DNA from: Fidelibacterota bacterium
GTDB lineage: Bacteria > Fidelibacterota > UBA8477 > JABMPR01
Length of the DNA stretch: 46,390 nucleotides
Assembly: GCA_013202385.1 (NCBI GenBank)
Contig: JABMOT010000171.1
Coordinates: forward strand, 1-46,390
Direction of reading: 5' to 3'
The notes under the pieces were generated by a model, which had not been told where the DNA came from, made no database searches, and saw only the letters and a program-made list of their open reading frames with translations. The first letter of the stretch is position 1; each line of letters begins with the position of its first letter. A program made the position numbers and the translations under genes. Shown here in pieces: positions 8,843-38,307 of this stretch.

Positions 8843-9808
8843 CTAAAAATTCATATCCAGGCCAAATCGGTGCCTGGGTCCGAAATATTCCATACTATTA
8901 AATGCATAATCCAGGCGAATGCCATGGATTAATTCGATGCCGCCACCCAAGCTCAATCCTTGGATATCTGTCCCCATCTGATAACCCAGGCGGAGTGCAT
9001 ATTTATTCATAAAAACTAGTTCAGCTCCTAATCCGTATAATTCATGACTATTATTGGAATGTATCATATTTGCAGCCAGATGCGAGGTGAAAAACGTATT
9101 CTTCCAACCATCCATGGAAATACCGGTCCTGAATGTCATGGGCAGGGGCCAGGTATCATACGAGCTACTGTCATTTACTGCTACTTCGACAGGATTGCTG
9201 AAATCGAGATATTGACCGCTAAACTGGGCTTCTTTTGAAAAATTCAGGATGCTCATACCGATATTCAAATTATGAAAGCCAGTCCGATACAAGGTACCGA
9301 TATCCCAGGCCAGCTGTGAATAGCCATCGTCATCATAGGATTCGCTTACATTTTTCATCGTCATCCCAAAGGAGAACTTATCTGTAATATGCCGCGAAAA
9401 ACTTAAACCGATGCTCATACCACCTAGAGAAAAGGTGCCATCACCAAACGGCATGTCTGGTGTGGTCCGAATTTCATCTCCATAGGTCACATAGACGGCG
9501 CTCACACCAAATGTACCGATGGTCTCCAGGTTATACGCTACACCCAAAGCCCCAAAGCTGATGTCTGCGGGCCAGTTTAAATAGCTTACATAAGAATTGA
9601 GCATGCCAGTCTCACCGAGGTCAGATAAGCCTGCTGGATTGACGAGCATGGCTGAACTCCCCCGAACCAGTGAGGTCCCGGAATTTCCCATGCCCATATT
9701 GCGGACATGGAGATTGACTTCCAGGAATTGACCGGCAACAGAACCGATAGACGATGAGGCCCAGAGGCTATTGAGCAGGATCAACATTGATATCAGGAGT
9801 TTATACAT
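8843..9808 (-). CDS. PorV/PorQ-like outer-membrane beta-barrel protein
   Basis: A 321-residue protein with a signal peptide (about 1-17) and the family hallmarks: an N-terminal 'GQFLEVNLHVRNMGMGNSG...VNPAGL' segment (compare PorV/UPF0164 'ar..gMGga....d..a...NPAgl'), then alternating amphipathic strands, ending RFGLDMNF with a terminal Phe as in outer-membrane barrels. In T9SS organisms PorV carries folded cargo from the translocon to the attachment complex; PorQ acts similarly. A cargo-shuttle role for the neighbouring sorting-domain proteins is inferred from the family and from its place between two genes for such proteins. Confidence 0.88.
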   Translation of the reverse strand: MYKLLISMLILLNSLWASSSIGSVAGQFLEVNLHVRNMGMGNSGTSLVRGSSAMLVNPAGLSDLGETGMLNSYVSYLNWPADISFGALGVAYNLETIGTFGVSAVYVTYGDEIRTTPDMPFGDGTFSLGGMSIGLSFSRHITDKFSFGMTMKNVSESYDDDGYSQLAWDIGTLYRTGFHNLNIGMSILNFSKEAQFSGQYLDFSNPVEVAVNDSSSYDTWPLPMTFRTGISMDGWKNTFFTSHLAANMIHSNNSHELYGLGAELVFMNKYALRLGYQMGTDIQGLSLGGGIELIHGIRLDYAFNSMEYFGPRHRFGLDMNF

Positions 9809-9820
9809 GATTCCCTCACC

Positions 9821-11848
9821 CTACTTAAGAATTATGAATTTGCCGGTTTTGTCGCCCAGAGATGAACTCACGTGGTAAAGATACACGCCAGGGGCAACCT
9901 CACGATTGGATCTGCTGACGAGATCCCATTCAGCGGTGGCTGTGTTGGTCTCAGGAGCATTTTCGATACCGCGTGAATCTGTGGGCTGAATCATTTTTAC
10001 AAAATCACCATCCAGGGTGAATATCCTTACAACAGCATCCTCAGGCAAATTGATAAAAAATAATCGATCTTTCCACTGGGACGAGGAAGACGGTGTGGCA
10101 TTGTTCCAGGGGGCAGATGCACGATAAGGGTTGGGAACAACCAGAATATCATCGAGGGTATTCACCAAACTTTTCCCAGTTGCCGTGATAAAATCGCTGG
10201 TGGCCAGCTCCATATTGAAATATTTGTCCGAGTAGCCAGTCACAATCAGAGAATAGGTATAATCGTATCCAAACAACACATCAGAATCAAAAACACTGAC
10301 ATAGGAATCGCCAGTACTCGTGAGTTCAGCCTCGACTTCGGCCTTGGAAAGCACCCTCAGGGTGTCATAGATGGGTAATCCTGCAACCGTTCGTTCTTTG
10401 AACTTAGCCAGGATGTAGCCGGTAAAGTTTGGATGCGCCATGGATGCGCTGGGATCCCAGGTAACATCCACACCTTGGAATACATTATCAGCATCCAGAA
10501 CAGCTCCAATATTCAATTGCGCCAAAGGCGGAATTTCCGTCTGATCCACCTGGAAATTTTCTGCAACCAATGTTTTCGCAACCTCCATATCCTCTACAAG
10601 ACGGATAAAACTGTAAATCCCGGCGCGATCAGCATCTGCACCCACCCCGATGGCGAAGACCACCTCAATGGAATCGCCATAGGCCAATGAATCAACGGGA
10701 CCAAATGTGGTTATAGCACGATAATCCCCTTCATTCACACCTCCACCCAGAAAAGGTGGCAGCTTGAACAATTTGTCAAAGGTGGTTTTCCCGATGGCAT
10801 TTGTCCACATGGCGGCATCCCCTGAAAAATCCTGACCAATAAAGGAGGTGGTGTAGGACTTGGGTTTCATATATGGTGAACTGTGAATCATCTGCATGGC
10901 TAAAACACCGGGGGTCTGATATACACCCACTGGATTTGGGTTTGCAAAATCATCATTGGCATTATCATGGAGATAGCTACCTGAAACCGTTGAGAGGTCC
11001 AGTAGACTTGTATCTACTTCAGAGACATAGCCCCGATTATCACCATCAAACATGATGGTTAAGGTTGAATCACCCACAAACTGAGAAATATATGGCCAGG
11101 CGGCGGTATCCTGATCCATCTGGTATTCCATATATGGGAAGAGTTTTAATTCATCCCAGCTCGTTGTAAGACACAAGGCAAGATCGTCACGATTCACAAA
11201 ATCCGCTTCTGCGTCCCAGGTGGTCAATTTGCTTACATCCCCATCCATCCTGAACGTAAAATGCACATTTTGGAGTGTGGAAAGATCATCTGCAAACCCA
11301 TCCCCTGTCGTATCCACACCTACATTTTTAAAGAAATATCGGAAGATGATAAAATCGTCTGCAAAGTTGAGACCATAACTATAAGCATGCTGTGTAATCT
11401 CAAGACCTAGGGGAATATGTGTATCGTTGACTTTAATTGCGTCTGTAAATTTGGTCCATGAATGCTCGACCAATCCATTCTGGAGTGTTTCCATTTGAAC
11501 CAGTGCCAAAGGGGTGTACTCTTTGTCTTCAGTCGTGCTGGTTCCCCGGGCGCCATTCCGGGTCCCTGTCAGCCACAAGGAGCCTCGATAGAGGTACGAG
11601 TTCCCTGAGCCACCGGGCCAATCTGCAGAAGGCGTACGTTCGCGATATGAGTCATCCCCGATCATGGAAAAATTGGTGACGCGCATCCAAAGTGTGCCGT
11701 TCCGATGGTAATTGAAGTCATAGGGCACCAATTCACTCTTTTTAAATAAGGATACTTTTTTGTTCTGGAACGACATAGGCTCCCCCGCTGCCTGGAGCAA
11801 CAAACTGGTAAATATCAGGGTCAAATAGAGGGCTAACTTTCGGTTCAT
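9821..11848 (-). CDS. large exported protein with FnIII-like region and VPNPY-type C-terminal domain (operon A)
   Basis: A 675-residue protein. I use the ATG at 11848 because AGGAG sits five bases upstream; the frame can also be opened with GTG 18 nt earlier. A signal peptide (about 1-21) is followed by a long region of unknown fold, then an FnIII-like stretch (DVTWDPSASMAHPNFTGY). The C-terminal domain (about 566-675) starts DDILVVPNPYRAS, continues with FINLPEDAVVRIFTLDGDFV and ends with the GVYLYHV strand and FIILK. This is a variant of the type-A sorting domain in which VPNPY replaces YPNPFNP. The gene follows the TonB receptor after 22 nt and precedes the PorV-like gene by 12 nt. It may be the receptor's surface partner; the activity is unknown. 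Confidence 0.85.
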   Translation of the reverse strand: MNRKLALYLTLIFTSLLLQAAGEPMSFQNKKVSLFKKSELVPYDFNYHRNGTLWMRVTNFSMIGDDSYRERTPSADWPGGSGNSYLYRGSLWLTGTRNGARGTSTTEDKEYTPLALVQMETLQNGLVEHSWTKFTDAIKVNDTHIPLGLEITQHAYSYGLNFADDFIIFRYFFKNVGVDTTGDGFADDLSTLQNVHFTFRMDGDVSKLTTWDAEADFVNRDDLALCLTTSWDELKLFPYMEYQMDQDTAAWPYISQFVGDSTLTIMFDGDNRGYVSEVDTSLLDLSTVSGSYLHDNANDDFANPNPVGVYQTPGVLAMQMIHSSPYMKPKSYTTSFIGQDFSGDAAMWTNAIGKTTFDKLFKLPPFLGGGVNEGDYRAITTFGPVDSLAYGDSIEVVFAIGVGADADRAGIYSFIRLVEDMEVAKTLVAENFQVDQTEIPPLAQLNIGAVLDADNVFQGVDVTWDPSASMAHPNFTGYILAKFKERTVAGLPIYDTLRVLSKAEVEAELTSTGDSYVSVFDSDVLFGYDYTYSLIVTGYSDKYFNMELATSDFITATGKSLVNTLDDILVVPNPYRASAPWNNATPSSSSQWKDRLFFINLPEDAVVRIFTLDGDFVKMIQPTDSRGIENAPETNTATAEWDLVSRSNREVAPGVYLYHVSSSLGDKTGKFIILK

Positions 11849-11870
11849 AATGTCTCCTAGGATCACTGGA

Positions 11871-14720
11871 TTAAAACTTCAGCGACAAGCCGAGTTTAAA
11901 CTGCCGCTCTGCGGGGTAGATCAGGGGTGTCCTAATGATCAAATTGGACAATTCCTCCTTGTAAATGATGTCAGGTGGATTGTCATCCCCGGGATCCTCA
12001 TCCTGGTTGAAATAGCTGGTGTAAATACTTTGGTGCACATCGTTATTGAGGGCGTTGTAGATATCAAGATTGAGCTGCAGGGTTAATGCATTCACCTCAA
12101 AACTACGGCTAATACGGATATCCAGATTGTCATAGGAAGGTAAGCGTTGATCGTTTACAGCTCCCAATACGCCATAGCTGGAAAAGGGTTTTCCAGTTCC
12201 GTATTCGTATTGAAAGTTAGCCACCCAATTTCGGGTAATGGACTTCAGTGCCGGGAGACCTTTGTTTGAATACAGTCCCAGGTTTACGTTGGAGCTGATC
12301 CGGCGGTCAAAATCAAGGGGATACATTTTCTTGTCATAGGGATACAATTTTACCCCCCCAGTTGAGGAATTTCGTCCTGTGGCGACAGAATAGGATACAT
12401 TCCCCTGGAGACTCCAGAAGCCTATCTTCTGCCGTTTAACGGCCAGCTCAGCACCCTTTACGTTGGCATAATCCCCATTCACATACCGGTTGACTTCCGT
12501 ACCATCAGGAAATACAAATTTCTCGTTGTTAACCAGATCTGACACGTCTTTGAAATACCCAGTGATGGACACTTTCAGACTGGGCGTAAACAAGTGTTCG
12601 AAGGAAATATCATAGGCCACAGTCTTTTCCGGTTTCAGAGCTGGGTTGCCTACCCAGTTTCCAACTTTGGTCAAGCTCTGATACTGATAGTTACGGAACA
12701 GATAGCGACCATCGGGTCTCTGGAAATAATGACCATAGGTAAAAAAGAGGATATCCCGATCAGAAATTGGATGTGAAATACCAATTCGGGGGCTAATCTG
12801 ATGACTGGCTTTGGCTTCCTGAGGATCGTTAAATATGGCATATCCCAGGCTGTCATAGCCTAATACGGGATTGGACATATTCCCTGGATATTGAACAGGA
12901 TCGCCGGTTCCATTGGGATTAAAATAGTCATAGCGAAGTCCTATAAGGGTGACCAGATCATCCTTAAATTCCATCTTGTCCTGGACAAACATTCCGAAGT
13001 CAAGGTCGTTCTTTTCCCAGATATCTTTGCGGAGGCTATTCAGGGCAAAATCGGTTTCCTCGGAGACGGAGGACCAGGTAATATCCGTTATCTTGGTGTT
13101 GTTCAGGTTGAACTGCCAACCTGCTTTGAGCATATGGTACTGGTCAAGCTGGGAGGTGAGATCTCCCTTAATCAGGTAGGAACTTACCTCTTGATTGCGA
13201 TATTCTGAATCATCGCCTCGCATCCACCAGAACTCGTATTCGCGTTCCCGTCGTTCAGGCCGAGGACCTTCCACTTCCCGATCCCATTGAAGCAGTTCTT
13301 CAGTATCACCATCCCCATCACGATCGGCATAGTCTTTCATACCATTCTCATAACTTGAGTTCAAAACCTGGGCGCTGAGCTCAAAAAAGGTATTGGATGA
13401 AACGGTATAAGTGAACACACCATAAAGCTGGGTGCTGTTTTTAACTCGGGATGTAAGGTGGTTCAATGGGGCATCAAGATAGAAATTCTGATGGAACCCT
13501 ACTGCCACTGAGTCTGAATCATTCAAGTTTATGTAATAAGGCGTTGAAAGGCTGTCGATTATACCAGAGCTGTACAGATTTGTATCCAGAGCATTCTCGA
13601 CGTACAAATATCGGATCAGCGTATCATTGCTGGCACTGAGATCTTCCACAAACTCATACAGGTCACTTTGAAAATTTTCTCCAGGGCCAAATTTTCCAGC
13701 CTGAAAATAGAAAGAATTCCATTCCTGCTTGGTCACATTACCACCAATGGACAGTTTGGCGCTGTTTGAGAGTCTGTAGGTCACTTTGCCCTGGTAACTT
13801 TGATTAAAGGCATCCTGATTCAGGTAATTGCCCTGCTTTCGGTCAAGGATGTCTCCTGAAATGGCAAATGTAAGACCGGGAAGAATGGGACCGCTTAGTG
13901 AAAAGCGATAATTATTTTCCAGCTTCTGCTGATATTTCGCATCCAGGCGCCAGGCATCTTTCGGCATGAGCGTTTCATTCAGTGAGGCAAAATCCGTGGT
14001 GGTGGAATACAATGAACCTGAGAAAGAGTCATCTCCTTCTTTCATTGCCAGGTTGAGCACGCCCGATTGAACATTACCATACTCTGCTGAGAATCCTCCC
14101 AGGGATACTTCCATCTGCTGCACGGCATCTTTTGGTACTCCCAATGTGAAGCCTCCAAAATCACCGGTATATCCGGCTGAAGCGTCCCGAATAGGAATGC
14201 CATCGATGACTACCAGCACTTCGCCGCTACGACCCCCGCGGAAGTTACTGCCAACAGCACCGGCTTGATTCTGAGCAATCCCAATAATGCTTTCTACAGG
14301 TTGCACTTCCATTTCTTCGGCTGATACAATGTGTTTTGAGGAAAATTCATCTTGATTCAAAAGGGTTCGTTGAGCGACAACCAGGACTTCTTCCCCGCTA
14401 CTGATAATTTCCGCTTCCATTTTTAAATCCACATAGCGCGTCAGATCAATGGATACCCTAACATCTGTCACTCGAATCGTTTTATAACCAATATAAGATG
14501 TCACAATGGTGTAGGTACCTGGGGGGACGTTCAAAATGACGTAGAAACCATCTTCATTGGTGGAAGCTCCCATATTTGAGTTATCAATAAAGACATTGAC
14601 ACCGATCAGGGGCACATTTTCAGCATCAGTGATAATGCCTGTGATCTTACCACTGGTTCCAGCCTGCAACATTGACATCATCCCTGTTAGAATAATGAAA
14701 GTGTGCAAATATCTTTTCAT
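11871..14720 (-). CDS. TonB-dependent outer-membrane receptor (operon A)
   Basis: A 949-residue protein: signal peptide (1-20), carboxypeptidase-regulatory-like domain (about 22-105; GKITGIITDAENVPLIGVNV and DGFYVILNVPPGTYTI), plug domain (about 120-235) with FRGGRSGEVLVVIDGIPI and GGFSAEYGNVQSGVLN, then a large beta-barrel ending in LGLSLKF (terminal Phe). Such receptors bind a ligand at the surface and import it with TonB energy; some are signal receivers. The substrate cannot be read from sequence, and no SusD-like partner gene was found nearby. GAGG lies six bases before the ATG. It is the first gene of operon A and diverges from the receptor at 16313. Confidence 0.93.
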   Translation of the reverse strand: MKRYLHTFIILTGMMSMLQAGTSGKITGIITDAENVPLIGVNVFIDNSNMGASTNEDGFYVILNVPPGTYTIVTSYIGYKTIRVTDVRVSIDLTRYVDLKMEAEIISSGEEVLVVAQRTLLNQDEFSSKHIVSAEEMEVQPVESIIGIAQNQAGAVGSNFRGGRSGEVLVVIDGIPIRDASAGYTGDFGGFTLGVPKDAVQQMEVSLGGFSAEYGNVQSGVLNLAMKEGDDSFSGSLYSTTTDFASLNETLMPKDAWRLDAKYQQKLENNYRFSLSGPILPGLTFAISGDILDRKQGNYLNQDAFNQSYQGKVTYRLSNSAKLSIGGNVTKQEWNSFYFQAGKFGPGENFQSDLYEFVEDLSASNDTLIRYLYVENALDTNLYSSGIIDSLSTPYYINLNDSDSVAVGFHQNFYLDAPLNHLTSRVKNSTQLYGVFTYTVSSNTFFELSAQVLNSSYENGMKDYADRDGDGDTEELLQWDREVEGPRPERREREYEFWWMRGDDSEYRNQEVSSYLIKGDLTSQLDQYHMLKAGWQFNLNNTKITDITWSSVSEETDFALNSLRKDIWEKNDLDFGMFVQDKMEFKDDLVTLIGLRYDYFNPNGTGDPVQYPGNMSNPVLGYDSLGYAIFNDPQEAKASHQISPRIGISHPISDRDILFFTYGHYFQRPDGRYLFRNYQYQSLTKVGNWVGNPALKPEKTVAYDISFEHLFTPSLKVSITGYFKDVSDLVNNEKFVFPDGTEVNRYVNGDYANVKGAELAVKRQKIGFWSLQGNVSYSVATGRNSSTGGVKLYPYDKKMYPLDFDRRISSNVNLGLYSNKGLPALKSITRNWVANFQYEYGTGKPFSSYGVLGAVNDQRLPSYDNLDIRISRSFEVNALTLQLNLDIYNALNNDVHQSIYTSYFNQDEDPGDDNPPDIIYKEELSNLIIRTPLIYPAERQFKLGLSLKF

Positions 14721-14744
14721 GGAATACCTCGTTCAATTCGATCA

Positions 14745-14754
14745 GAGTTAACTC
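14745..14754. promoter_or_regulatory. GAGTTAACTC palindrome 25 bp upstream of the operon A start
   Basis: A perfect 10-bp palindrome upstream of the TonB receptor ATG at 14720. Inverted repeats sharing the GTTAA/TTAAC core also lie upstream of the other two TonB-led operons (15802-15816 and 43921-43947). An operator role is only a guess, because short AT-rich palindromes are common by chance. Confidence 0.25.
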
Positions 14755-15111
14755 AAAATACCATCACGTCATTCGTCGGGAGCTGTTGAACAAATGCAGA
14801 GTACTTATAATCATTCGCTTCCCCATGCTAAAACATTCACCTATGCATGCACCATAACTTGCGTGACTTTAAAAATAGCATGTTATTTAATATGAATACA
14901 ATTTTTAAGCCCTATAAATAGACCCACATCCTAAAATATAATAGGTTTAGTATTCTGTTAAATTCATACCAGTTAAGGTAAATATAGTTTGTACACAATT
15001 CGATAGTAACCTTTTTTCTTCTGTGGACAGATATAATTCAAATGTCGTTGTGATTTCTGGTTTTAGCTCAGGTGTTGGTAATCAGGGAAGAACAAACTCA
15101 TTCAACAAAAT

Positions 15112-15348
15112 TCATGAATCTTGAGATTGAATGACTTGGTTTTTATATAATTGATGCTTCCATTTGAGTAACCATTCACAACTGTAAATCGGTTTTCCAG
15201 ATTTTTTGACGGGTAATCCATAAAGCCATGCTGGAAGCGATCCCCCACATCTGACATACAAGTTTCCAGTCTGCTTATCAGGCGGGAAATGCTTCACCTC
15301 GATTAACAATTCCAAGCTTCCGGCTAGAACTTCGCACAGCTGAACCAT
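15112..15348 (-). CDS. doubtful small ORF, 78 residues
   Basis: Codes for a 78-residue protein with mixed, protein-like composition (LLIEVKHFPPDKQTGNLYV, GLPVKKSGKPIYS, WLLKWKHQLYKN). No family is recognised. A weak CCAGG lies before the ATG. The region around it is full of decayed sequence, so it may be a remnant of a longer gene or a chance ORF. I list it because the residues do not look like an obvious shadow of another gene and nothing else explains this stretch. Confidence 0.3.
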   Translation of the reverse strand: MVQLCEVLAGSLELLIEVKHFPPDKQTGNLYVRCGGSLPAWLYGLPVKKSGKPIYSCEWLLKWKHQLYKNQVIQSQDS

Positions 15349-15467
15349 CTTAAACCTGGTGAGAATTTGATCGATCTTTTCTGCACAATATGATTCTTTG
15401 GACTTGATGCATTATTATCATCTGATTAGACTGGTGGAAGTCTGTGTACAAATAAGAGGAGTATCTC

Positions 15468-15749
15468 TTGCCACTATTTTTTTATCTCTAACGAGTGGGT
15501 CACCTTCCTAATCTTCTTTGCCATTATCATACTTTTCATAGGCATAGCTGAGTTAGCGCGTAAAGTATTCCGTCTTTCTCCTGAAATAACCTGGAAGTTT
15601 GTACATGCCTGGTTTCCCTGGCTCCCTTTTTCCTCCCTGCAAAGCTGCCTGTCATTTTGCTTGGGATGGTGTTTACCAATCTGAACTATTTTGCTCTAAA
15701 TATGGATGGTCCTCAAAGAATGCATGTGACTGAAGGAAGAATATTTTGA
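15468..15749 (+). pseudogene. decayed 5' fragment of a homologue of the kinase-like/DUF92 gene at 23575
   Basis: After an AGAGGAG site and a TTG, the sequence encodes, in shifted frames, the first roughly 92 residues of the protein at 23575. In frame two EWVTFLIFFAIIILFIGIAE corresponds to EWISFFLFFGIIMFFIGIAE; by hand I count 24 of 39 identical residues over this block and its extension to KFVH. In a third frame SLAPFFLPAKLPVILLG corresponds to SLAPFFLTAKLPVILLG, with 29 of 40 identical up to MHVTE/MHTTE. One frameshift lies near 15490. A 13-nt deletion relative to the intact gene lies near 15607-15611. Homology ends at about 15740 and a TGA follows. No catalytic part remains, so it is non-functional. 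Confidence 0.88.
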
Positions 15750-15801
15750 TGTATGATAATTCATATTATCACTATTGATATTATGGATATTTTGACCGTT
15801 C

Positions 15802-15816
15802 GTTAATAAAATTAAC
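15802..15816. repeat. small inverted repeat GTTAAT-AAA-ATTAAC
   Basis: Perfect 6-bp arms with a 3-nt spacer, about 500 nt upstream of the TonB receptor at 16313 and just after the pseudogene. Its core matches the inverted repeat upstream of operon C. It is too short and AT-rich to call an operator with confidence. Confidence 0.3.
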
Positions 15817-16051
15817 AAACCCCTCTAAATAATACTTGTTCAGTAAATGCGGTCGTGCATATTGATTCCAACGTGCAAACAAGTTTGTGTTTGGTGAATA
15901 ATATATTTAATAAAATTGTTCATGTTAAACAATCGATAATTATGGAAAATATATCTATAAAGGAAGTGCTGCATATTGAATTTTTGATTCCCATCTTGCT
16001 TAGAAACTCAGGACATGGGTATTGTGTGGCATGTTCATTTTGATCCAGGCA

Positions 16052-16186
16052 ATGAATAGGACATTCTATTCGGTGACTCAGTTTCACCAGGATTTGGTTC
16101 AAGTGACGGACTATCAGAACCCTGTCAGCGGCACTTACATTTATACGCTTAACCATAATGAAGAGCTTACAGGAAACCCTGCCTAA
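16052..16186 (+). pseudogene. possible 44-codon gene remnant
   Basis: An open frame starting MNRTFYSVTQFHQDLVQ and including DYQNPVSGTYIYTLNHN, then a TAA. The composition (acidic/amide-rich, alternating strands, SGTYIYTL) looks like part of a secreted beta-sandwich protein and unlike random sequence. There is no ribosome-binding site, the family is unknown, and a longer antisense frame overlaps it. It is best seen as a possible leftover of a gene lost from this junction. Confidence 0.25.
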
Positions 16187-16312
16187 ATAGTTCTGTCGAT
16201 TATCGAATAACATGGGTACCCTCTTGGTTTCTATTTTGTTATTTGTAGGTATATACTGATAAATCTTATAGGGAAATCTGAGATCAGCTTTCCCAGAGTC
16301 TAGGAGAAATAC

Positions 16313-18976
16313 ATGACATCAATCTTTAAGAGCTTTCGATATATTGCTCTTTTTCTGCTTAGCATTGAGGTGAGTTATGCAGGAGCGGGGAAAATCGTGG
16401 GGACGGTTACAGATTACGAAACTGGCAGTGCTTTGCCATACGTGAATGTGATTATTCACGAACTCAATATTGGTGCTTCAACAGATATCAATGGCTATTA
16501 CATCATTTTAAATATTCCTCCAGGAGAATATTCAGTGAGTGCTTCATTTATCGGATATCAAAATACAAAATATGAAGGTGTACAGTGTGCCACGGGACAT
16601 ACTACCGTACAGAATTTCACTCTCCCCTCTGCTGTGATCTCAGGCGAGGAGGTGGTTGTTATTGCAAAACGCCCCTTGGTTCAGAAGGATTTGACTGCCT
16701 CCCAGAAGATTACTACCTCGGCAGAGATAAATGCTATGCCTGTGGAAAGTTTCCTGGATGTTCTCACTACCCAGGCAGGTGTCAACACGGGAGCAGATGG
16801 AGCTATCCACATCCGCGGCGGTCGCAGCAATGAAGTTGGCTTCTATATTGATGGCATATCAGTAGTAAATCCCTTTACAGGGTCCCTGGCAATGAATGTT
16901 TCCAATAATGCGCTCCAAGAAATGAAAGTTATATCAGGTGCCTTTAATGCTGAATATGGAAACGCCATGAGCGGTATCATTAATATTCAATTGCGCGAAG
17001 GAGGCGAACTACTCGATGGCAGTGTGACCTACTACACTGGCGATTATCTTTCCAACAATTCGCAAGTTTTTCCCAATATTGACGCTTATAACCCGATGGC
17101 CAACTCAGTTTTGGAGGCTGCCCTGACAGGTCCAATTTTGGGTCGCAAATTGACGTTTAATATCAGTGCAAGACTCCACAACAATGGTGGGTATTTGTAC
17201 GGTATTCGCGAACATGCCCCGGAAGACTCAGCCAATTTCCAGGATGGTGATGAATGGTATATAGAAAGCAGTGGTGACAGTAGCTACGTGTCAATGAATC
17301 CCTCAATTAGCGGTAATGGATTGGCCAAATTCACCTGGCGTATTAGCCCCCGCCTGAAAATGTCCTTTCAGGGTCTTTATGATCAGAGTCAATCAAAAGC
17401 CTATGTCCATACATATAAATATAATCCCGATGGTATTTATCAGTATTTGCGTGAGAATGGTGGGATTGCTGTCCGTTTAAATCAATCATTTGGCAGTACC
17501 TTCTACGAATTGAATCTGTACTACAATTCAACCAATTATCGCAAGTATGTATATGAAGATCCAGCGGATCTGCGCTATGTCTCCACATCCAACATTGTTG
17601 GTAGTCCCGGGTCAACCACATTTGCGTTCGGTGGCACGCTAATGGAGCATGACAATAGAAATTCTAAAACCCTGGGAACAAAATTCGACATTACCTCGCA
17701 GATTGGGTCCCATCATGAAATAAAAGCAGGTCTGGATGTTAAAACAGATCATTTGGAATCTGATGATGCCGTTATACTGTATAATGGTCAGCGCTATCGT
17801 GAACCAACTATTCTTCCCGCCAATCTTTCACCCAGTCATTCCACTTATACTGGTGATGCCACTTTCTTTAGCGCCTACGCCCAGGATAAACTTGAGTACG
17901 AAAGTATGATAATGAACGTGGGATTGCGCTATGACTTTTTCGAACCTAATGGTGAGTTCCCCACTAATCTGTTGGATCCTACTGGAACTGCCCAGGCAGC
18001 GGATTCAAAACATTCAATCTCACCCCGTTTGGGCGTATCCTTCCCCATCACGGATAAAGGATATTTACATTTTTCCTATGGCCATTTTTATCAATTACCT
18101 ACGCTGACAGCACTTTATTCCACGTCAATATTCGGCGCCAATATTACACCGTCGTTGGGCTATACGGATCTGAAACCTGAGAAAACTGTGCTCTATGAAT
18201 TTGGTCTTCAGCAGCAATTTGGCGAATACATCGCTCTGGAAGCCATCGCCTTTTATAAAGATATCCGTGATCTGCTGGCTACTCAGTCGATTTATTACGA
18301 ATCCGCAGTTTATGGTCCCTCCAACTACAGCATTCGTTTGAATAAAGATTATGGGACGGTCCTGGGGTATACACTCAGTCTTTCAAAACCCCATGATCCC
18401 GCGAGTCATCTCTCTGGTCACCTGGACTATACCTACCAGACAACAGAAGGCAATGCTACCAACTCAGGCTCCTTTTTCTTCAGCCAATTCTCTGAGACGG
18501 AAGAGGCCAAGCAGATTGTCTATCTAAGTTGGGATCAAACCCACTTGATAAATGGAACCGTCACCTATTCCGTTCCCAATAAATGGGGTATCAGTCTGAT
18601 TGGAAAGCTGGCTAGTGGCTGGCCTTATACTCCGACCATTCCACTGGCAAACTACAATCCGATTCCCAATAGTGAGCGGAAACCCTGGCAGCGGAACATC
18701 GATCTCAGGATGCACAAGAATATCCAGGTAGGTAATTTTGAAACCGTCCTGTTTGCAATGGTGTTTAACCTGTTGGATGAGCTTAATGAACGCTATGTGT
18801 ATGACGATACAGGACAAGCTGGATATACCTATGTAAACCAGAGTTCGGAGGAAACAGCAGAATTCAAAAGCCATTATGGAGAACCGGGCATCCACACCTG
18901 GTCAGAGTACCAGGTTCGTCCTACTTACTATTCTTCTCCAAGATCCACCTATCTTGGCATCACCCTTGAGTTTTAA
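16313..18976 (+). CDS. TonB-dependent outer-membrane receptor (operon B)
   Basis: An 887-residue protein with a signal peptide (about 1-23), carboxypeptidase-regulatory-like domain (about 25-110; GKIVGTVTDYETGSALPYVN and NGYYIILNIPPGEYSV), plug (about 120-235) with IRGGRSNEVGFYIDGISV and GAFNAEYGNAMSGIIN, and a barrel ending LGITLEF. AGGAG lies six bases before the ATG. It has the same architecture as the receptor at 11871 but is clearly diverged, so it is a separate paralogue. It is first in a plus-strand operon, 12 nt before the VPNPY-protein gene. The imported or sensed ligand is unknown. Confidence 0.93.
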   Translation: MTSIFKSFRYIALFLLSIEVSYAGAGKIVGTVTDYETGSALPYVNVIIHELNIGASTDINGYYIILNIPPGEYSVSASFIGYQNTKYEGVQCATGHTTVQNFTLPSAVISGEEVVVIAKRPLVQKDLTASQKITTSAEINAMPVESFLDVLTTQAGVNTGADGAIHIRGGRSNEVGFYIDGISVVNPFTGSLAMNVSNNALQEMKVISGAFNAEYGNAMSGIINIQLREGGELLDGSVTYYTGDYLSNNSQVFPNIDAYNPMANSVLEAALTGPILGRKLTFNISARLHNNGGYLYGIREHAPEDSANFQDGDEWYIESSGDSSYVSMNPSISGNGLAKFTWRISPRLKMSFQGLYDQSQSKAYVHTYKYNPDGIYQYLRENGGIAVRLNQSFGSTFYELNLYYNSTNYRKYVYEDPADLRYVSTSNIVGSPGSTTFAFGGTLMEHDNRNSKTLGTKFDITSQIGSHHEIKAGLDVKTDHLESDDAVILYNGQRYREPTILPANLSPSHSTYTGDATFFSAYAQDKLEYESMIMNVGLRYDFFEPNGEFPTNLLDPTGTAQAADSKHSISPRLGVSFPITDKGYLHFSYGHFYQLPTLTALYSTSIFGANITPSLGYTDLKPEKTVLYEFGLQQQFGEYIALEAIAFYKDIRDLLATQSIYYESAVYGPSNYSIRLNKDYGTVLGYTLSLSKPHDPASHLSGHLDYTYQTTEGNATNSGSFFFSQFSETEEAKQIVYLSWDQTHLINGTVTYSVPNKWGISLIGKLASGWPYTPTIPLANYNPIPNSERKPWQRNIDLRMHKNIQVGNFETVLFAMVFNLLDELNERYVYDDTGQAGYTYVNQSSEETAEFKSHYGEPGIHTWSEYQVRPTYYSSPRSTYLGITLEF

Positions 18977-18988
18977 TTGAGGTCCAAT

Positions 18989-21900
18989 ATGACGACGACA
19001 ATCGAGCAAAAACGCACATTAAAATGGCTGATATCACTCCTCCTTTCTCTGGCTCTGAGCCAGGGAATAATGGGAGCTGACAAAATTCGAAGAGGCTCAC
19101 TTGAGTGGTTCGTGAATGGTCCTGAAAAGACATGGACCCAGACAGACTTCCGTCTCTATAATGAGTGGCGTGAAAATAAGCTATCCAAGGCAGTGGCCGA
19201 GGATGAACAGCTCCTGCGGCGCCAAAAAGCCATTATGAATGGCAATAAAATCACCACTGAAATATGGAACTATGGCTCTATTTCCCGACCCGGAAATACC
19301 ATTACTGACATTGTCTGGGAAGGTTTGGGTTATGGCTATGAATTTGGCCCCTTTATTTGCGCTGAAGTGGATGTTCAGTCTGATTCTCATGAGGATGCCT
19401 ATATTGCCGTCGATGCTGAGGGAGACACCTTGGTCTATGAAAATGGAGATCCGATCTGGCGAGCCCAGGTTATCAGCGATGGATTGACATCCAACGGGGG
19501 TGAGACTTCGCCTGATGGTCAGGACTTCTGGGGTTGGTCACCTCTGGCTTTTGATGATGCGGGTATCATCCCCTTTGCCGATCCTTTGACAGACAGAATG
19601 CCCATTAGTAATGACCTTGACCGCGATGGTGACGGTAAACCAGACAGTTGGCCAGCTGGTTGGTATAGTGAGAGTCTTGAGAAATATGTCTGGCCTGGAG
19701 CGCTGAAACAAGGATCAGCCAATTCAGATATGGAAATTTACTTTGTTGTGGATGACCGTATGAATCGCGAGTTTGCCTACTATCCCTTCTCGGATGACTC
19801 TTCAAAACAGGGTTTGGGGATTGCCATCGAATGTCGTTACTATCAATGGTCAAATCCTCTGGCAGAAGACATTATCTTTCTGGTTTACAAGGTCACCAAT
19901 AAAAGTGAAAAAGATCTTGAGGATGTGATCTTTGGCATGTGGGGTGATCCCCATATTGGAGGACCCTCCAACTATAACGATGATCTCTCTTTCTTTGATC
20001 ATGAACTGAACATGGTTTATGCCTGGGATGAAGATGGTCGCTCGGATAAGGTGGGTTCTGTCCCCGGATATTTTGGCTATAAGTTTCTGGAATCCCCAGG
20101 AAATCCCTATGATGGTTTGGACAACGATCAAGATGGTATGATCGACGAAAGCTGGACCAATGGGATTGATGATGATGGCGATTGGAACCCAGAGAAGGAT
20201 GATGTAGGTCTTGATGGTGTCGCTAACACCGGCGATGAGGGCGAAAGTGATGGAGTTCCTACCGCAGGCGATCCGTACGATCCCAGGCAACCGGGTGAAC
20301 CGAATTATGAATTTACCGATATCGATGAATCTGATATGATTGGCCTGACCAGTTTTGCATCTCCGCAATTCGGATCGCCGAACTATATCAGAAATGATGA
20401 TTACATCATTAATGAGTATTTGCAGCCTGGATATTATGACTCAAGTGGGGCTGCTTTAGCCGGTGATAATATCTTTTTGTATGGCTCAGGTAAATTCCCC
20501 CTTCCAAGAGATGAAAGTCGAAGATTCTCGATTGGTCTTATCATCGGTCAAGATTTTGATGATCTCACTTTAAACGCTGAAACCGCCAATCAGATTTATC
20601 AGAGTAATTATCAATTTGCGACACCTCCCCCAAAACCAAATGTTATTGCCGTAGCTGGCGATCAAAAAGTAACCCTGTACTGGGATGATATCGCTGAGGA
20701 TGCTTATGATCCGATCTCTGAGAGCAATGATTTTGAGGGTTACGTGATTTATCGAAGTACCGATCCATCTTTTCTCGATCAACAAACCATTACTGACTCC
20801 TATGGATCAAAATTTCTTTTTGAACCGCTCAAAATGGGTAACGGAGCCGAAGCTCGATTTGACCTGGACAATGAATATGTTGGATTGAGTAGTGTACCTT
20901 ATGCCAATCGTGGTTCAAGTTATTATCTGGGGAACAACACTGGAATTCGGCATGCCTTTGTCGACTCGAACCAGGTGATGAACGGTCAAACCTACTACTA
21001 CGCTGTTGTCTCCTATGATCATGGTGTTATTGAGCTTGAAATTGCACCCACTGAGTGTTCAAAAAACATTACGCTCAACCCTGAGAGCAATGAAATATTC
21101 CTGGATGCGAATACGGTTAGAGTCGTCCCAACCGCCCCAGCAGCGGGCTACATACCAGGCATTGTAAACGATGGAAGTATCCTCCATACCAGCGGTGTGG
21201 CTACTGGACAGCTTGCTATTAATGTTTTGGACGCTGACAGGGTCCAGGAATCCAACGCCTTTGAGATCAACTTTCAGGAGAACCCAACCCGCTTCTCGAT
21301 TCACGACATCAAACCCAACGAATTGCCAGTGACACTCATAGGGAGTCAATGGTTTCAGATGCCCTATCAGAATATTTACGATTCGACATTTACACTGGTA
21401 AATATTAGCACAAACGCAGAATATGATCGAGATATCGATTTTATTTTCTATCCAGATATTGGTCAATTACAACGTATTGAGACAGGTCATATACTTTCCG
21501 GCGAACCACTCATGGCGATATTCACATACTTCCCTGTTTGGGAGAGCAGTTTTATTGCAGGCGGTCCCCTGAACCCCATTTTTGATGGGATGACGATAAC
21601 GGTTGCTGATCAGGAATTAGGTATCATAGAAGCTATTTCGGAGTGGAGCTCTGGTAGTCAGACCACCTGGGAAGCCAGTATCGCCCCCTTCACTGGTGAT
21701 CTCACAAAACGTTTCCCTGCAGATTATGAGATTCGATTTTTTAATCAGAATGTAGATACTGCAAAGTTTTACCCGGTTGCTGCACCCTTCGAAGTTTGGG
21801 ATGTGACTCCAGGTCAAATTCCCGAAAAACGGGTCTTTGAAGTGTTAGAACCCATCGCTACAAAAGATTCCTTGTGGCAGAGGAGTGAACCCATCATCAT

Positions 21901-22411
21901 TTACAAAAGCAATGATGGAAATTTTGATTTCGGGTGGGAGGTTACTTTCTCACTACCAAGTACTGGTGATACCGTGAGTGCTGGATCGGGCGATATCTAT
22001 GCCTTTTTCACGTCTCGCCCCTTTACTGAGGAAGATGTTTACGGGTTTTCAACCAGCGCTTCCCATATCAACAATGAGGCAGCCAAGGCCGCCCTGGATG
22101 ACATCTGTGTTGTACCTAATCCGTATGTGGCCGTTTCAGCATTTGAACCCTATGATTATCAGCATCTTTTGGATCGCGGAGATCGCTTGGTTTATTTTGA
22201 CAATCTCCCCACAGAATGTACGATCCGCATCTATACAATCGCTGGAGAGCATGTAAAAACCATCGAGCATAGCTCCTTCATGAGTGATGCTCAGGAATTC
22301 TGGAATCTTACCAGTAAGGATAATTTCCCAATCTCTTATGGTATCTATTTGTACCATGTGGATGCCGGCGACCTTGGTCAAAAGATCGGACGAATTGCGG
22401 TGATCAAATGA
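18989..22411 (+). CDS. very large exported protein with Asp-rich repeats, FnIII-like region and VPNPY-type C-terminal domain (operon B)
   Basis: A 1140-residue protein. The ATG at 18989 has GAGG six bases upstream; an in-frame TTG at 18977 touches the previous stop but lacks a site. The signal peptide is about 1-33. Residues about 374-430 are Asp/Gly-rich, with GLDNDQDGMIDESW, NGIDDDGDWNPEKDD and GDEGESDGVPTAGDP, resembling calcium-binding DxDxDG loops. An FnIII-like domain follows (about 549-640, KVTLYWDD...FEGYVIYRS). The C-terminal domain (about 1036-1140) contains DDICVVPNPYVAVSA, CTIRIYTIAGEHVKTIEH and GIYLYHVDAG, ending IAVIK. This matches the C-terminal domain type of the other three receptor-partner proteins. 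It overlaps the PorV-like gene by ATGA. Its enzymatic or binding role is unknown. Confidence 0.87.
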   Translation: MTTTIEQKRTLKWLISLLLSLALSQGIMGADKIRRGSLEWFVNGPEKTWTQTDFRLYNEWRENKLSKAVAEDEQLLRRQKAIMNGNKITTEIWNYGSISRPGNTITDIVWEGLGYGYEFGPFICAEVDVQSDSHEDAYIAVDAEGDTLVYENGDPIWRAQVISDGLTSNGGETSPDGQDFWGWSPLAFDDAGIIPFADPLTDRMPISNDLDRDGDGKPDSWPAGWYSESLEKYVWPGALKQGSANSDMEIYFVVDDRMNREFAYYPFSDDSSKQGLGIAIECRYYQWSNPLAEDIIFLVYKVTNKSEKDLEDVIFGMWGDPHIGGPSNYNDDLSFFDHELNMVYAWDEDGRSDKVGSVPGYFGYKFLESPGNPYDGLDNDQDGMIDESWTNGIDDDGDWNPEKDDVGLDGVANTGDEGESDGVPTAGDPYDPRQPGEPNYEFTDIDESDMIGLTSFASPQFGSPNYIRNDDYIINEYLQPGYYDSSGAALAGDNIFLYGSGKFPLPRDESRRFSIGLIIGQDFDDLTLNAETANQIYQSNYQFATPPPKPNVIAVAGDQKVTLYWDDIAEDAYDPISESNDFEGYVIYRSTDPSFLDQQTITDSYGSKFLFEPLKMGNGAEARFDLDNEYVGLSSVPYANRGSSYYLGNNTGIRHAFVDSNQVMNGQTYYYAVVSYDHGVIELEIAPTECSKNITLNPESNEIFLDANTVRVVPTAPAAGYIPGIVNDGSILHTSGVATGQLAINVLDADRVQESNAFEINFQENPTRFSIHDIKPNELPVTLIGSQWFQMPYQNIYDSTFTLVNISTNAEYDRDIDFIFYPDIGQLQRIETGHILSGEPLMAIFTYFPVWESSFIAGGPLNPIFDGMTITVADQELGIIEAISEWSSGSQTTWEASIAPFTGDLTKRFPADYEIRFFNQNVDTAKFYPVAAPFEVWDVTPGQIPEKRVFEVLEPIATKDSLWQRSEPIIIYKSNDGNFDFGWEVTFSLPSTGDTVSAGSGDIYAFFTSRPFTEEDVYGFSTSASHINNEAAKAALDDICVVPNPYVAVSAFEPYDYQHLLDRGDRLVYFDNLPTECTIRIYTIAGEHVKTIEHSSFMSDAQEFWNLTSKDNFPISYGIYLYHVDAGDLGQKIGRIAVIK

Positions 22412-23460
22412 GGACGCTGATTATGACCCGAAAAATAGTAGTGATAACCTTGATACTAATTTTTTGCACGAATACACTCTTCGCCCAAATTGGTAATTCC
22501 CAGACGATTACCAAAACGGGGACAACAGCGGCAGCGTTTTTAAAAATTGCTCCTGATCCTCGAGCAGCGGCTATGGGCAATGCCTTTATTTCCATCCCTG
22601 GCGATTTGAGTTCCATGCACTGGAATCCAGCTGGTTTGGATCACATCACTCGGAGTGAGGTTTTGTTTGTCAACAATAAGTGGTTGGCTGATATTGATTA
22701 CTTATTCATGGCCATGGCTGTGAAGTTGCCCTCCATCGGTACAGTTGGGATAAGTGCCACAAGTCTGAGTATTCCGCAAGATCTCGTTCGGACGGAGATT
22801 AAACCTGACGGGACTGGCGAATATTGGTCGGCTCAGGACCTGTCACTGACCCTTTCCATTTCACGGCGACTCACTGACCGGTTTTCTATAGGGGGCAACG
22901 CAAAATTTATCAGTGAGCGAATCTGGCACGAATCAAGTGCCAACATCGCCTTGGATTTTGGAACCTTGTATGATATGCCCATCGGTGGCATCCGTTTGGC
23001 CGGTGTACTATCCAATTATGGTCCCAAAATGGGTTTAAGCGGCCGTGATCTGTATTTCAGCTCGGATCCCGACCCCATCAAAAGCGGAACGGTCACTTTT
23101 GTAAATTCGGAATATCAAACCGACGATTACCCTCTACCCCTGGTCTTCAGAGTGGGACTGTCAGGCGAATTATTCGAAAATCAAAAAGTACGCTTAACCT
23201 GGGCTGCTGATGCACTGCACCCCAATGATAATCTAGAAAGCGTGAACCTTGGTGCAGAGTTGGGTCTGGCGGAGACCGTCTTTCTGAGAGCGGGCTGGTC
23301 ATCTCTCTTTTTACCCGATACTGAAGAGGGACTGACCCTGGGCGCTGGTTTGAACTATCGGATTGGTGGATCACAGAGCATACTAAAGGTTAATTACAGT
23401 TATTCTGATCATGGACGATTAAAGAGTGTCCAACGATTTTCACTCGGCTTAGCGTTTTAA
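22408..23460 (+). CDS. PorV/PorQ-like outer-membrane beta-barrel protein (operon B)
   Basis: A 350-residue protein with a signal peptide ending near FAQIG and the PorV-family N-terminal signature AAAFLKIAPDPRAAAMGNAF...MHWNPAGL, followed by barrel strands and ending FSLGLAF. The ATG overlaps the upstream TGA (ATGA) with GGTGA just before it; an in-frame ATG at 22423 with GAGGA eight bases upstream is an equally good start and would trim five residues. Coupling to the upstream VPNPY protein suggests that the barrel handles that protein's transport or anchoring, as PorV does for T9SS cargo. Confidence 0.9.
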   Translation: MRTLIMTRKIVVITLILIFCTNTLFAQIGNSQTITKTGTTAAAFLKIAPDPRAAAMGNAFISIPGDLSSMHWNPAGLDHITRSEVLFVNNKWLADIDYLFMAMAVKLPSIGTVGISATSLSIPQDLVRTEIKPDGTGEYWSAQDLSLTLSISRRLTDRFSIGGNAKFISERIWHESSANIALDFGTLYDMPIGGIRLAGVLSNYGPKMGLSGRDLYFSSDPDPIKSGTVTFVNSEYQTDDYPLPLVFRVGLSGELFENQKVRLTWAADALHPNDNLESVNLGAELGLAETVFLRAGWSSLFLPDTEEGLTLGAGLNYRIGGSQSILKVNYSYSDHGRLKSVQRFSLGLAF

Positions 23461-23574: not shown

Positions 23575-25089
23575 GTGCCCTTGTTTTTCAATCTACCCAA
23601 TGAATGGATATCATTCTTCCTTTTCTTTGGCATTATTATGTTTTTTATTGGTATCGCTGAAATTTCCCGAAAAGTTCTACATATATCCCCGGAATTGACC
23701 CGCAAATTTGTCCACGTTATGGTTGGCATCCTGGTTTCCCTGGCACCCTTTTTCCTCACTGCAAAACTGCCCGTCATTTTACTTGGAATAATTTTTACCT
23801 TTCTGAACTATGTCGCTTTAAAAAAGGATGGTTTGAAGGGCATGCATACAACTGAACGCATCTCATTTGGAACTGTCTATTTCCCCATCGCCTTTACCCT
23901 CCTTGTGATCATGTTCTGGGATCGAAATATCGTTATTTTTATTGTGGCTATGCTGATTCTTGCCTTTGCGGACACAGCTGCAACCGTGGTTGGAGAGCGG
24001 ATTAATTCAAAAAATAAATTTATTTTATGGCACGACAAAAAAAGCTGGCCTGGCAGCATAGCATTCTTTACCACGGCTTTAGTGGTCATGTTGACCTGCT
24101 ATCCAATCTACACTGGATTTTTGAATGATAATCCGCTGCCCCTGATTCATCTGGTAGGGATGTCAGTATTTGTCGCATTTGTCTCTACAGTAGCTGAAGC
24201 TGTTTCAAAACGCGGTAGCGACAACCTTACATTGACCTTAACCGCCGCTCTTGGCATGGATCTTTACCTCACCAGTATGAATAACGGAACTCTGGTTGCA
24301 CTTTCAGGTTGGTTCATCGTTTCTTTTATTTTAGGATTCGGGGCATTTAAGCTAAAAGCACTGAGCGTCAGTGGTGGATTTGGTGCTTTTCTTCTGGGTG
24401 TCTTCATGTTTGGAATGGGTGGTTGGCACACAACCCTCCCCCTGATCGGCTTTTTTGTATTGTCAAGTCTACTCTCAAAAATCGCAGACAGACAATCCAA
24501 ACCAGATGTCATTCTCTCTAAGGGATCTCAGCGCGATATTGTCCAGGTTTACGCAAATGGCGGAATTCCGTTGATAATCACCATAGCCTGGTATCTGTCC
24601 AGCTTTTCAATAGAATGGCTGTATTGGGCATTTCTGGCCTCCCTGGCAAGCGCCACGTCTGATACTTGGGAAACAGAGATTGGCAGCTTTAGCAAAAAGC
24701 TACCGCTGAATATATTAACCTGGAAGCGTGTTGCGAAAGGTTACTCGGGTGGTGTATCATTTCTGGGAACCCTTGGAGGTCTCGTGGGTGCCGTATCAAT
24801 CATAGCCATATCTTATTTTATGGGTTACCTCGAGTGGGACCCTGCTTTGATCGCAGTCATTATTTTTTCAGGATTTCTTGGCAGCGTTGTAGATAGCATT
24901 CTTGGTGCCAGTATCCAGGCCAAATTCACCTGTGAAGTGTGTGGGAAATCAACAGAGCGCTTGAGTCATTGCCACCAGGAGACACGCCATGTATCTGGAT
25001 ATCTCTGGCTTGACAATGATTGGATCAATGTAGCCGGCTCCCTTTCGGGGGGCGTCATTTTCGTGTTGGCATATTATTTTACGTTTTAA
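23575..25089 (+). CDS. fused phytol/dolichol-kinase-like and DUF92 membrane protein
   Basis: A 504-residue multipass membrane protein with a GTG start and AAAGGA upstream. The N-terminal half (about 1-215) resembles the phytol kinase/dolichol kinase/CdsA-like family (VTE5, SEC59): RKFVHVMVGI, then FADTAATVVGERI and the basic KKSWPGSIAFF segment. The C-terminal half (about 230-500) is DUF92 (TMEM19/VTE6-like): KGSQRDIVQVYANGG, SATSDTWETEIG, GYSGGVSFLGT and GSVVDSILGASIQ. In plants and cyanobacteria VTE5 phosphorylates phytol and VTE6 phosphorylates phytyl phosphate, so a single protein for two-step isoprenoid-alcohol phosphorylation is inferred. A CxxC-like pair (CEVCGKS, SHCH) lies near residues 460-470. 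A decayed copy of its start is at 15468-15749. Confidence 0.85.
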   Translation: MPLFFNLPNEWISFFLFFGIIMFFIGIAEISRKVLHISPELTRKFVHVMVGILVSLAPFFLTAKLPVILLGIIFTFLNYVALKKDGLKGMHTTERISFGTVYFPIAFTLLVIMFWDRNIVIFIVAMLILAFADTAATVVGERINSKNKFILWHDKKSWPGSIAFFTTALVVMLTCYPIYTGFLNDNPLPLIHLVGMSVFVAFVSTVAEAVSKRGSDNLTLTLTAALGMDLYLTSMNNGTLVALSGWFIVSFILGFGAFKLKALSVSGGFGAFLLGVFMFGMGGWHTTLPLIGFFVLSSLLSKIADRQSKPDVILSKGSQRDIVQVYANGGIPLIITIAWYLSSFSIEWLYWAFLASLASATSDTWETEIGSFSKKLPLNILTWKRVAKGYSGGVSFLGTLGGLVGAVSIIAISYFMGYLEWDPALIAVIIFSGFLGSVVDSILGASIQAKFTCEVCGKSTERLSHCHQETRHVSGYLWLDNDWINVAGSLSGGVIFVLAYYFTF

Positions 25090-25179: not shown

Positions 25180-28100
25180 CTATTTCAGTAGCAGAATTCG
25201 TCTCCCTTGAATTCCAAGTTTAGTCTCCAGGACAACTATATAAACACCAGTAGCATAATCACTGCCGCTAAAGCGTATTTTATGTTCACCTTCCGTGAGC
25301 CGATCATTGATAAGTTGTTCTAGCTCCCGCCCCCTAATATCAAAGATAGAGAGTCGCACCTGCATTGGATCAGGTATTGAAAAACTCAACATAGTTTCAG
25401 GATTAAAGGGGTTGGGATAATTTTGATTTAGCCGAAACGCTGTGGGCTGTTGAAAAGACTCCTCATTTACAGAAACCCCAGGCATTCTTTTGATGATTCT
25501 GAAGTTATCTAGATATACACGACCACTTACTTCACCAAATTCTGGATCATAGGTCAATTGGAAACTATCCGCACGATAATTCGTTCCATCCAGAACCCCA
25601 CTACCAGTAAGCCATGTTCCTACCATGCTGGGATCACTCAGATCCCATTCGAGTAGTCTCCAGCCCTCCCAGTCGATTGTGTACCAGGTAGAAACTTCAC
25701 TTGTTATCCAACTACTGCCATCGCCTTCATCAATGGCGAAACGGAATTTATTGTTACTAGCATCACCATAGATATAACACTGGATGTTGTAGGAAGTGTC
25801 GAAATATACACTTGCGGGCGGCGCTGTATCCGGGATGTACTCTCTCAACAGATGTGAGCTTACGGTGGTGTCCCATTGATAAGCGATATATGCTGATTTT
25901 AAACCCTGATTGTAGATACTTGATGCAGGCAGATAATTACTGGTTGAGTAGCCAAAGGTTGTTGCAGAACCAATGGTGCCCGCGGTTGAGCCGCTCCCCT
26001 CAGGATCCCACCAGCCATTCATTGCTGTAAAATTATCTATGTCTATTATTTCAGAGTAATGTTCATTGAATGTAGTGAAAGATACTGAAATCACTTCATC
26101 CAAGGGATTCCCAATGGTATCCGAGATACTTTCTGCCAGGGTTATGGTATAATCGCTTGCAGCGTGAAGGGGTTCAAACAGCTTGATATCCAGCACCGAT
26201 TTTCCATAATATCCAGTCATCAGGAAACCAAATTCCTGTTCTTCTCCGGCTTGGCTAAAACTGATAGCGTCCATGGTCACGCTTTCACGATCCAATTCTT
26301 CATCAAAAACAAAAGAGATCACACCTTCAACATCAAAATCTTCAGCGGCGATAGTAAAATCAGGTGTACTATATATTACTCTGGGACCTGCTTCATCAAT
26401 TTCTTTTGTAAGGAAAGTATAGCTAAGGGTACCGCCGGCTACCCCGTCTGCGTCACCGTCAAAAGCGACCCCGTTAATGTCTTGAGCAACATCGCTGAGT
26501 GACACTGTATAAGCCGTAAGGAAATCCAAATTATTCAGAGGATATACGGTGAGGCGGTGATTTGACTCAGACCAGCTATAAATATCAACACCAATATCAG
26601 GAGAAAAACTAAGTGCAGACTCAACTGAAACGATGTTCATAGATTTGCTGAAATTGAATGTCAGAGGAGTGTTCACATTAACTGTGTCGTCTGGTTCGGG
26701 GTAGACATATAGAGCCACAGGAGCAAATGATTCCAATACGGAAGATTCAACACCAACAGCAGGCAGTGACTCGTTCCAATATCTGTCCAGCATGGTAGCA
26801 CTATAAAAATAGCTGCTGTTGTGATCCTGGGTTCCGTCAAATGATTCGGTTATAGTAAAGGTATCTGCACCAAAAAGCACACCAATAATCTTGCTCTCAT
26901 CTACATCGAATTCATCGGTCTCAGAGCGATAAATCGCCCACCATTGATCTTCTGTGACAGACTCATCAGGCGTAACAGTAATATCGAAAGTGAAATCGTC
27001 AATGATAGCTAGTGAGACCGAAGGCGAGACCGGTGACTCATTTACATAAATACCTGTGTCACGTATTTTAGTCTTCCCGCTAAAAAAGGTTGCGCCGGCT
27101 ATGGGCCAGTATTGATAGCCCTGCCAACTGCCATAGGAGAAGAATTGGAACCCATCTACCCAGTCAATCGATCTACAAGCATTAATCACACTTTCATGCC
27201 GTGACCATACATTATTCAAAGCAAATTGGTAGGATCCGGGACCGGCAGAGTACAATCTGCCTGCATTAACTCCAGGTTGGATGTACAATCCCCAATCATT
27301 TGATAATTCGTTAGTAAAGCCCCCCGATGTTGTCCAATGATAATGCATGGGAGTTAGTTGGTCGATATAGCCCTCGTTAAACCAGAGTGCTGCATCTTGA
27401 AAGACAGCATAGTAGCCATTCCAGCCTCCAGTTCCACCAGCCTTGTATTTTCCTATTGCAGCCACTGACAGACGAACCCAGGGTTTCTGGGTCTGGATAG
27501 AGTCATGGAGGGCATGTACAAATTCTGTAACTGAGGATCGCCAGAATTCCTCCCAAGAGTCATATTCGCTGGGAATTCCTCCCAAATATGAATGTTCAAT
27601 ATCATATGTATAACGTGCAGGATCAACAGAGCGGGCTGCTGCATTATACTCTTTTTCGACCATACCGTCCAAAATCTGTAATTGCGACTCTTCTGATAGC
27701 TGGGTTATTGTAGAGAAATCGCCGGTATCATACTCATTCCAGCGTACATAATCCAAGTGCAATCCATCAATATCATAGTTAGTCACCAATTCCATAGCTA
27801 CATCTAATGTATAATCTCTCACCGCTTGTAAGCCTGGTGATAAAGCACGATATCCAGGCATGGGGTTTCCATCCCCATCACGACAAACCCAATCTGGATG
27901 TGCTAGAGCAGGTGGAAGAGGCGATAATGTGGAGTCCACTGATGAAGTTTGAAAGGTATTGAACCATGCATGCAGTTCCAGACCACGGGCATGCGCCTGT
28001 TCAATGGCATATTGAAGTGGATCATATCCTGGGTCACTGCCACCTGCATAATAGCCCCAAGGTTCGAAGGATGAATTATAATAGGCAGTTCCACCTTGTC

Positions 28101-28308: not shown

Positions 28309-28426
28309 ATTTGACTTTCCTCCATTAAATGTTGTCATAAAAGATAATCTGAAAATCCTACGAAGTAAGTATGATTCCTGTACAAACTGATCACATATTC
28401 CCACCTGAATCTGTACAACTAGGCAC

Positions 28427-28458
28427 AAAAAAAAGGCGAGCATAACTCGCCTTTTTTT
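28427..28458 (-). terminator. intrinsic terminator of operon C
   Basis: GGCGAG / CTCGCC arms with a 5-nt loop, flanked by runs of A and T (8 A before, 7 T after on the plus strand), so the structure also works on the minus strand, where transcription of the upstream gene ends 18 nt earlier. A classical rho-independent terminator. Confidence 0.92.
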
Positions 28459-31141: not shown

Positions 31142-31184
31142 ATTATTTCGTCCTGTTTTTTGCATGATACGCCAACTCCAAAGT

Positions 31185-36256: not shown

Positions 36257-36264
36257 GATTTCCC

Positions 36265-37251: not shown

Positions 37252-37276
37252 GCGAAACCTTCTAGACCTTCTCATC

Positions 37277-38296: not shown

Positions 38297-38307
38297 TTGA
38301 AAACCCC

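Follow-up and report, generated by a model that had tools for sequence, protein, structure and literature searches.

A decayed 5' fragment of a DUF92-fusion gene and the arrival of a TonB-receptor operon in a Fidelibacterota genome

An intact gene for a CTP_transf_1/DUF92 fusion protein and a short, frameshifted copy of its 5' end lie on opposite sides of a three-gene TonB-receptor operon (operon B) in a metagenome-assembled contig of a Fidelibacterota bacterium, the whole of which (46,390 nucleotides) is the window analysed here. This arrangement raises the question of how one gene came to be represented on both sides of the operon, and whether the divergence of its copies dates the event. 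The intact gene (23575 to 25089, forward strand) encodes 504 amino acids, of which residues 15-206 match CTP_transf_1 (PF01148; E 9.8e-7, above the gathering cut-off, in a scan of the N-terminal part by itself) and residues 249-492 match DUF92 (E 2e-62); judged by these domain matches, the label 'kinase/DUF92' appears apt. VTE5/VTE6-type proteins are phytol and phytyl-phosphate kinases (PF01148 and PF01940), and the predicted domain make-up of the intact gene resembles theirs, but here the domains are fused in one protein and the fragment encodes neither. The gene product is presumably a fusion of phytol-kinase-like and phytyl-phosphate-kinase-like membrane domains, a function predicted by family. 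Among the 18 congeners, 17 carry a single copy of the gene, the one not doing so being G008, whose genome is 63% complete; none of the 18 holds a second copy, and nearly all other genomes of the phylum that carry it give exactly one match each. In G031 it looks broken, with several stops and frame breaks (contig 1, 201347-202804), and in G016 (L016) it contains one in-frame TGA; the DUF92-fusion gene may thus be dispensable in some lineages.

A six-frame search of the whole assembly placed the DUF92 gene at two sites only, the intact gene and the fragment. The fragment spans 15468 to 15752 on the forward strand and corresponds to the first ~98 codons of the intact gene. Alignment of 15469-15710 with 23576-23832 gave 181 identities over 257 positions (70%), the BLASTN E-value being 2e-32 with the gene as target and 4.5e-31 with the entire window. 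In 500 dinucleotide shuffles the local score had a mean of 20 and a maximum of 30, far below the observed 148. The fragment falls into three parts. Block 1 (15468-15607) runs from the start codon to codon ~47 and carries a 2-nt deletion near 15487, which leaves the TTG start at 15468 out of frame past 6 codons. A 13-nt deletion between 15607 and 15608 separates it from block 2 (15608-15710; codons ~52-86), which is a recently shared tract with 23730-23832 of the intact gene. The degenerate tail (15711-15752; codons ~87-98) contains a TGA at 15747-15749 and marks the end of homology; a weaker ungapped match continues to 15749, over 142 nt at 77%. The sequence-only reading had described a decayed, same-orientation copy of the gene's 5' end split by a 13-nt deletion, with 24/39 and 29/40 identical residues in its two translated blocks, and each of these points holds, the residue counts now being 25/41 and 31/42.

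The fragment retains its start codon and an AGAGGAG resembling a ribosome-binding site. A coding role was considered and ruled out, since the frame of the start codon is lost after 6 codons and further lesions follow. No trace of the last ~80% of the gene, past codon ~98, was found upstream of operon B at E-values up to 10. With its homology, its disabling lesions and truncation, and its relaxed constraint, the fragment is a pseudogene: it is dead, and unable to make the DUF92-fusion protein. An Rfam search of 14600-16400 returned zero matches. The fragment is flanked by two open frames, at 15115-15411 (reverse strand, 99 amino acids) and 16004-16183 (forward strand, 60 amino acids), which have no Pfam or NCBIfam match and nothing convincing within the genus; these are possibly more decayed gene pieces of the same scar region. 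Between the fragment and operon B, 15753-16312 has no match in the relatives' loci compared.

Operon B consists of three forward-strand genes, encoding a TonB-dependent receptor with a CarboxypepD-like domain (16313-18976), a large secreted protein of 1144 amino acids (18977-22411) and a PorV/PorQ family outer-membrane protein (22408-23460; NF033709, E 2e-53). Alignment and coordinates agree that the operon is bracketed by the fragment and the intact gene, as had been proposed, with the truncated copy on one side and the full-length copy on the other in the same orientation. To the left of the fragment, on the reverse strand and divergent from it, is operon A (8843-14720), which encodes another TonB receptor, secreted protein and PorV family protein. 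We compared these flanks with those of relatives, all Candidatus Neomarinimicrobiota metagenome-assembled genomes, using polA as the species marker; rpoB is missing from half the genomes. Within the genus, the downstream flank of DUF92 is fixed, with a GHL10 glycosidase-like gene (25180-28443, reverse strand) as its conserved neighbour, and the upstream side is variable. In two congeners that lack operon B, G006 and G010, operon A adjoins DUF92 divergently across gaps of 491 and 533 nt with nothing in between, so that the fragment, which 748 nt separate from operon A in the window, sits at the place of DUF92 beside operon A. A 37-nt element (AAATATAGTTTGTACACAATTCGATAGTAACCTTTTT; 14980-15016) lies ~216-260 nt ahead of operon A. 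The genomes G006, G010 and G007 retain it at 78-92% identity and at similar distances, while its surroundings are not conserved; in G007 operon A is located elsewhere and the element is still upstream of it. This flank is therefore native to operon A, and the element is probably a promoter or regulator site.

Operon B is absent from all 18 congeners. The best score of its 1144-aa protein in the genus is 403 bits (42% identity), against 1682 bits (65% over its length) in G019, a member of another genus of the same family, and 55-60% identity in many other families. The whole three-gene operon is kept in G019 (62, 64 and 65%, with the receptor at 62% and the large secreted protein at 65%) and in other families, in differing contexts and with no DUF92 nearby in the stretches inspected; none of the sampled genomes has operon B followed by DUF92. 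Most other congeners and same-order relatives carry a B-like operon and a secreted-protein gene upstream of DUF92. We considered whether operon B is this same operon and dropped the idea, as the tree groups operon B with G019 (SH-aLRT 99), far from the operons preceding DUF92 in congeners. These comparisons indicate that operon B is a lineage-specific insertion at the junction of operon A and DUF92; the empty junction of G006 and G010 is what an insertion predicts, and one gain here is simpler than several losses, with the caveat that some of the genomes compared are incomplete. The composition of operon B gives no sign of foreign origin (GC 0.44-0.47, like its neighbours), and the DUF92 pair is the sole notable repeat on either side of the insert.

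The divergence between fragment and intact copy is markedly uneven. In block 1 (codons 2-47) pS is 0.98, pN is 0.16 and third-position identity is 31%; in block 2 (codons 52-85) pS is 0.29, pN is 0.12 and third-position identity is 74%, with dN/dS of about 0.34. The contrast in third-position identity is significant (Fisher p 2.6e-4), and the difference of 0.42 between the blocks compares with a largest value of 0.21 in 153 congener pairs, the intact gene included. The 13-nt deletion coincides with the mosaic boundary, and the breakpoints, drawn from only ~270 nt, are rough (best window permutation p 0.0075). Differences in block 1 are distributed 14:2:31 over the codon positions. Between this genome and each of the congeners compared, third positions approach saturation, so that block 1 represents between-species divergence under coding constraint; the same saturation defeated an attempt to identify a donor by synonymous distance. 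The dN/dS of block 2 is as expected if one of the two copies had lost constraint; pN reaches 0.40 in fragment codons 86-92, and of 75 second codon positions conserved in congeners, 5 have changed in the fragment and 0 in the intact copy. Because of this relaxation, the decay of the fragment is recent relative to the divergence of block 1. The sequence-only reading had taken the divergence to imply an old event, which is not supported: the divergence of block 1 mostly predates the event and accrued under coding constraint, so divergence alone is no proof of great age.

In a tree of the whole stretch the fragment and the intact gene are sisters (95/86), a signal that comes from block 2 (96/94). 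The tree of block 1 does not unite them, but a sister pairing is not rejected there either (p-AU 0.36); the intact block 1 leans to G006 (93/94) and the fragment's block 1 has no clear partner. The rest of the intact gene, codons 93-504, branches outside a nine-genome clade, like polA, in agreement with the species tree.

We favour an explanation in which the fragment is what remains, now dead, of the left-hand end of a DUF92-fusion gene and operon B was inserted through recombination between diverged DUF92 alleles, a reading to which we give about an even chance of being right. In the ancestral chromosome operon A would have adjoined DUF92, as it does in G006 and G010, and the incoming DNA would have brought operon B and, behind it, the beginning or more of another lineage's DUF92 gene. 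Strand exchange within the conserved stretch near codons 52-85 would have left a full-length, hybrid DUF92 gene at the operon B side, with its native downstream neighbour, and the other copy as a 5' stub beside operon A that has decayed since. A join of two lineages' alleles is preferred because a single duplication followed by decay cannot give two ages. We infer that the sharing of the tract and the insertion were one event and that this was a single crossover or a one-sided integration; either DUF92 copy may have been the newcomer. Against this model, the mosaic inside DUF92 would look the same after a later gene conversion, and the shared tract could have arisen that way, separately from the insertion. 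The proposed donor, with operon B ahead of DUF92, has no representative among the sampled genomes. The proposed immediate ancestor, moreover, is drawn from G006 and G010, neither of which is sister to the present genome (G000); G015, the sister species by polA (97/98), is arranged differently, with a secreted-protein gene directly before DUF92.

Of the other explanations, the least unlikely is that two functional DUF92 paralogues or xenologues long flanked operon B, that a short tract was converted between them and that one was later lost. The low pN and saturated pS of block 1 and a homogenised tract of ~100 nt fit this directly, but a long-lived second copy would be expected in some relative, and the congeners and nearly all other genomes of the phylum that carry the gene have one; we regard it as unlikely. 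The earlier suggestion of segmental duplication or recombination-driven insertion stands for the insertion of operon B, on the relatives' synteny, and falls for a single old duplication, on the two third-position identities. Were DUF92 or its 5' end simply copied in this lineage, with operon B placed between the copies and neutral decay thereafter, the common orientation of the copies and their closest relationship overall would follow. Such an event predicts uniform divergence, yet adjacent blocks differ more than threefold in pS; the codon-position pattern of block 1 is that of two functional genes and unlike neutral decay, and block 1 alone does not recover the copies as sisters, even if their grouping is not rejected. 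Plain duplication is thus distinctly improbable.

It is about as improbable that the fragment arrived with operon A, as the flank of a donor resembling G006 or G010, and that the native gene is the intact copy. In favour of this, the fragment adjoins the flank of operon A, operon A has a scattered distribution in the genus (4 of 19), and intact codons 93-504 track the species tree, as they would under our main model too, which retains native codons 93-504; the fragment, for its part, groups with neither G006 nor G010 in any block. Site-specific integration of an island into the 5' end of DUF92, with the element bringing a replacement 5' end, has a model in e14, which carries a replacement icd 3' end. 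It would account for a broken piece on one side and a restored gene on the other, and at the edge of the tract the two copies are identical over 15 nt (CCTGGTTTCCCTGGC; 15608-15622). Between the fragment and the intact gene, however, there is no integrase or transposase, only the three operon genes, and the shared tract is merely 84% identical, which makes this explanation very improbable indeed.

The preferred recombination between alleles has parallels among known systems. Campbell-type single-crossover insertion duplication predicts an upstream 3'-truncated copy and a downstream full-length hybrid; the two copies here stand in that order around the insert, the truncated one before it and the full-length one after it, but no plasmid backbone is left here, and a donor circle is only hypothetical. 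Homology-facilitated illegitimate recombination (HFIR) is a related route, described in S. pneumoniae, A. baylyi and P. stutzeri and at low frequency in E. coli; its known events insert ~1 kb, delete about as much and show microhomology at the junction (PMC3240628). As in HFIR, foreign DNA would here have been joined homologously at one end and without homology at the other; unlike in HFIR, the insert is ~8 kb, the deletion matching the insert that is usual in the classic case (PMC3240628) is not evident, and the junction is too old to read. New modules in Vibrio T6SS arrays and Rhs loci have displaced 3' ends and orphan immunity genes beside them (PMC5361080). There, as proposed here, a homologous anchor admits a new module and a remnant of the old gene is left alongside; in the present case a 5' end was left, the gene is membrane kinase-like, and effector and immunity genes play no part.

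Receptor modules recur within the 46 kb of the window. Four TonB-type receptors (11871, 16313, 33305 and 40425) have a CarboxypepD-like domain, each adjoined by a large protein of unassigned family (9821, 18977, 31185 and 38308), and PorV/PorQ-family proteins occur at 8843, 22408 and 36265; the regions concerned (8843-14720, 16313-23460 and 29903-43691) look like a recurring receptor-cargo-shuttle operon design. In L162 (G087), from another family, only a few kb separate a relative of operon A (66-70%) from one of operon B (55-56%), and both operons have relatives in the sister genus G019; operons A and B may be functionally linked. The operons upstream of DUF92 vary by species, being operon A, B-like operons or, here, A plus B. 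It is conceivable, if doubtful, that the DUF92-fusion gene repeatedly serves as an anchor in the exchange of TonB-receptor/secreted-protein/PorV operons in Neomarinimicrobiota by recombination within the gene.

The fragment is itself an ordinary type of genomic scar, on our preferred reading left by mosaic recombination, and no new kind of system; as a scar rather than a working element it carries modest weight. It would mark a junction of DNA from two lineages, and so is informative on the arrival of operon B and useful for dating it, with the caution that an event dated from raw divergence of the fragment it left can seem much older than it is. Taken together, these observations suggest that in this uncultured phylum outer-membrane receptor/secreted-protein operons may move between lineages via an adjacent conserved gene.
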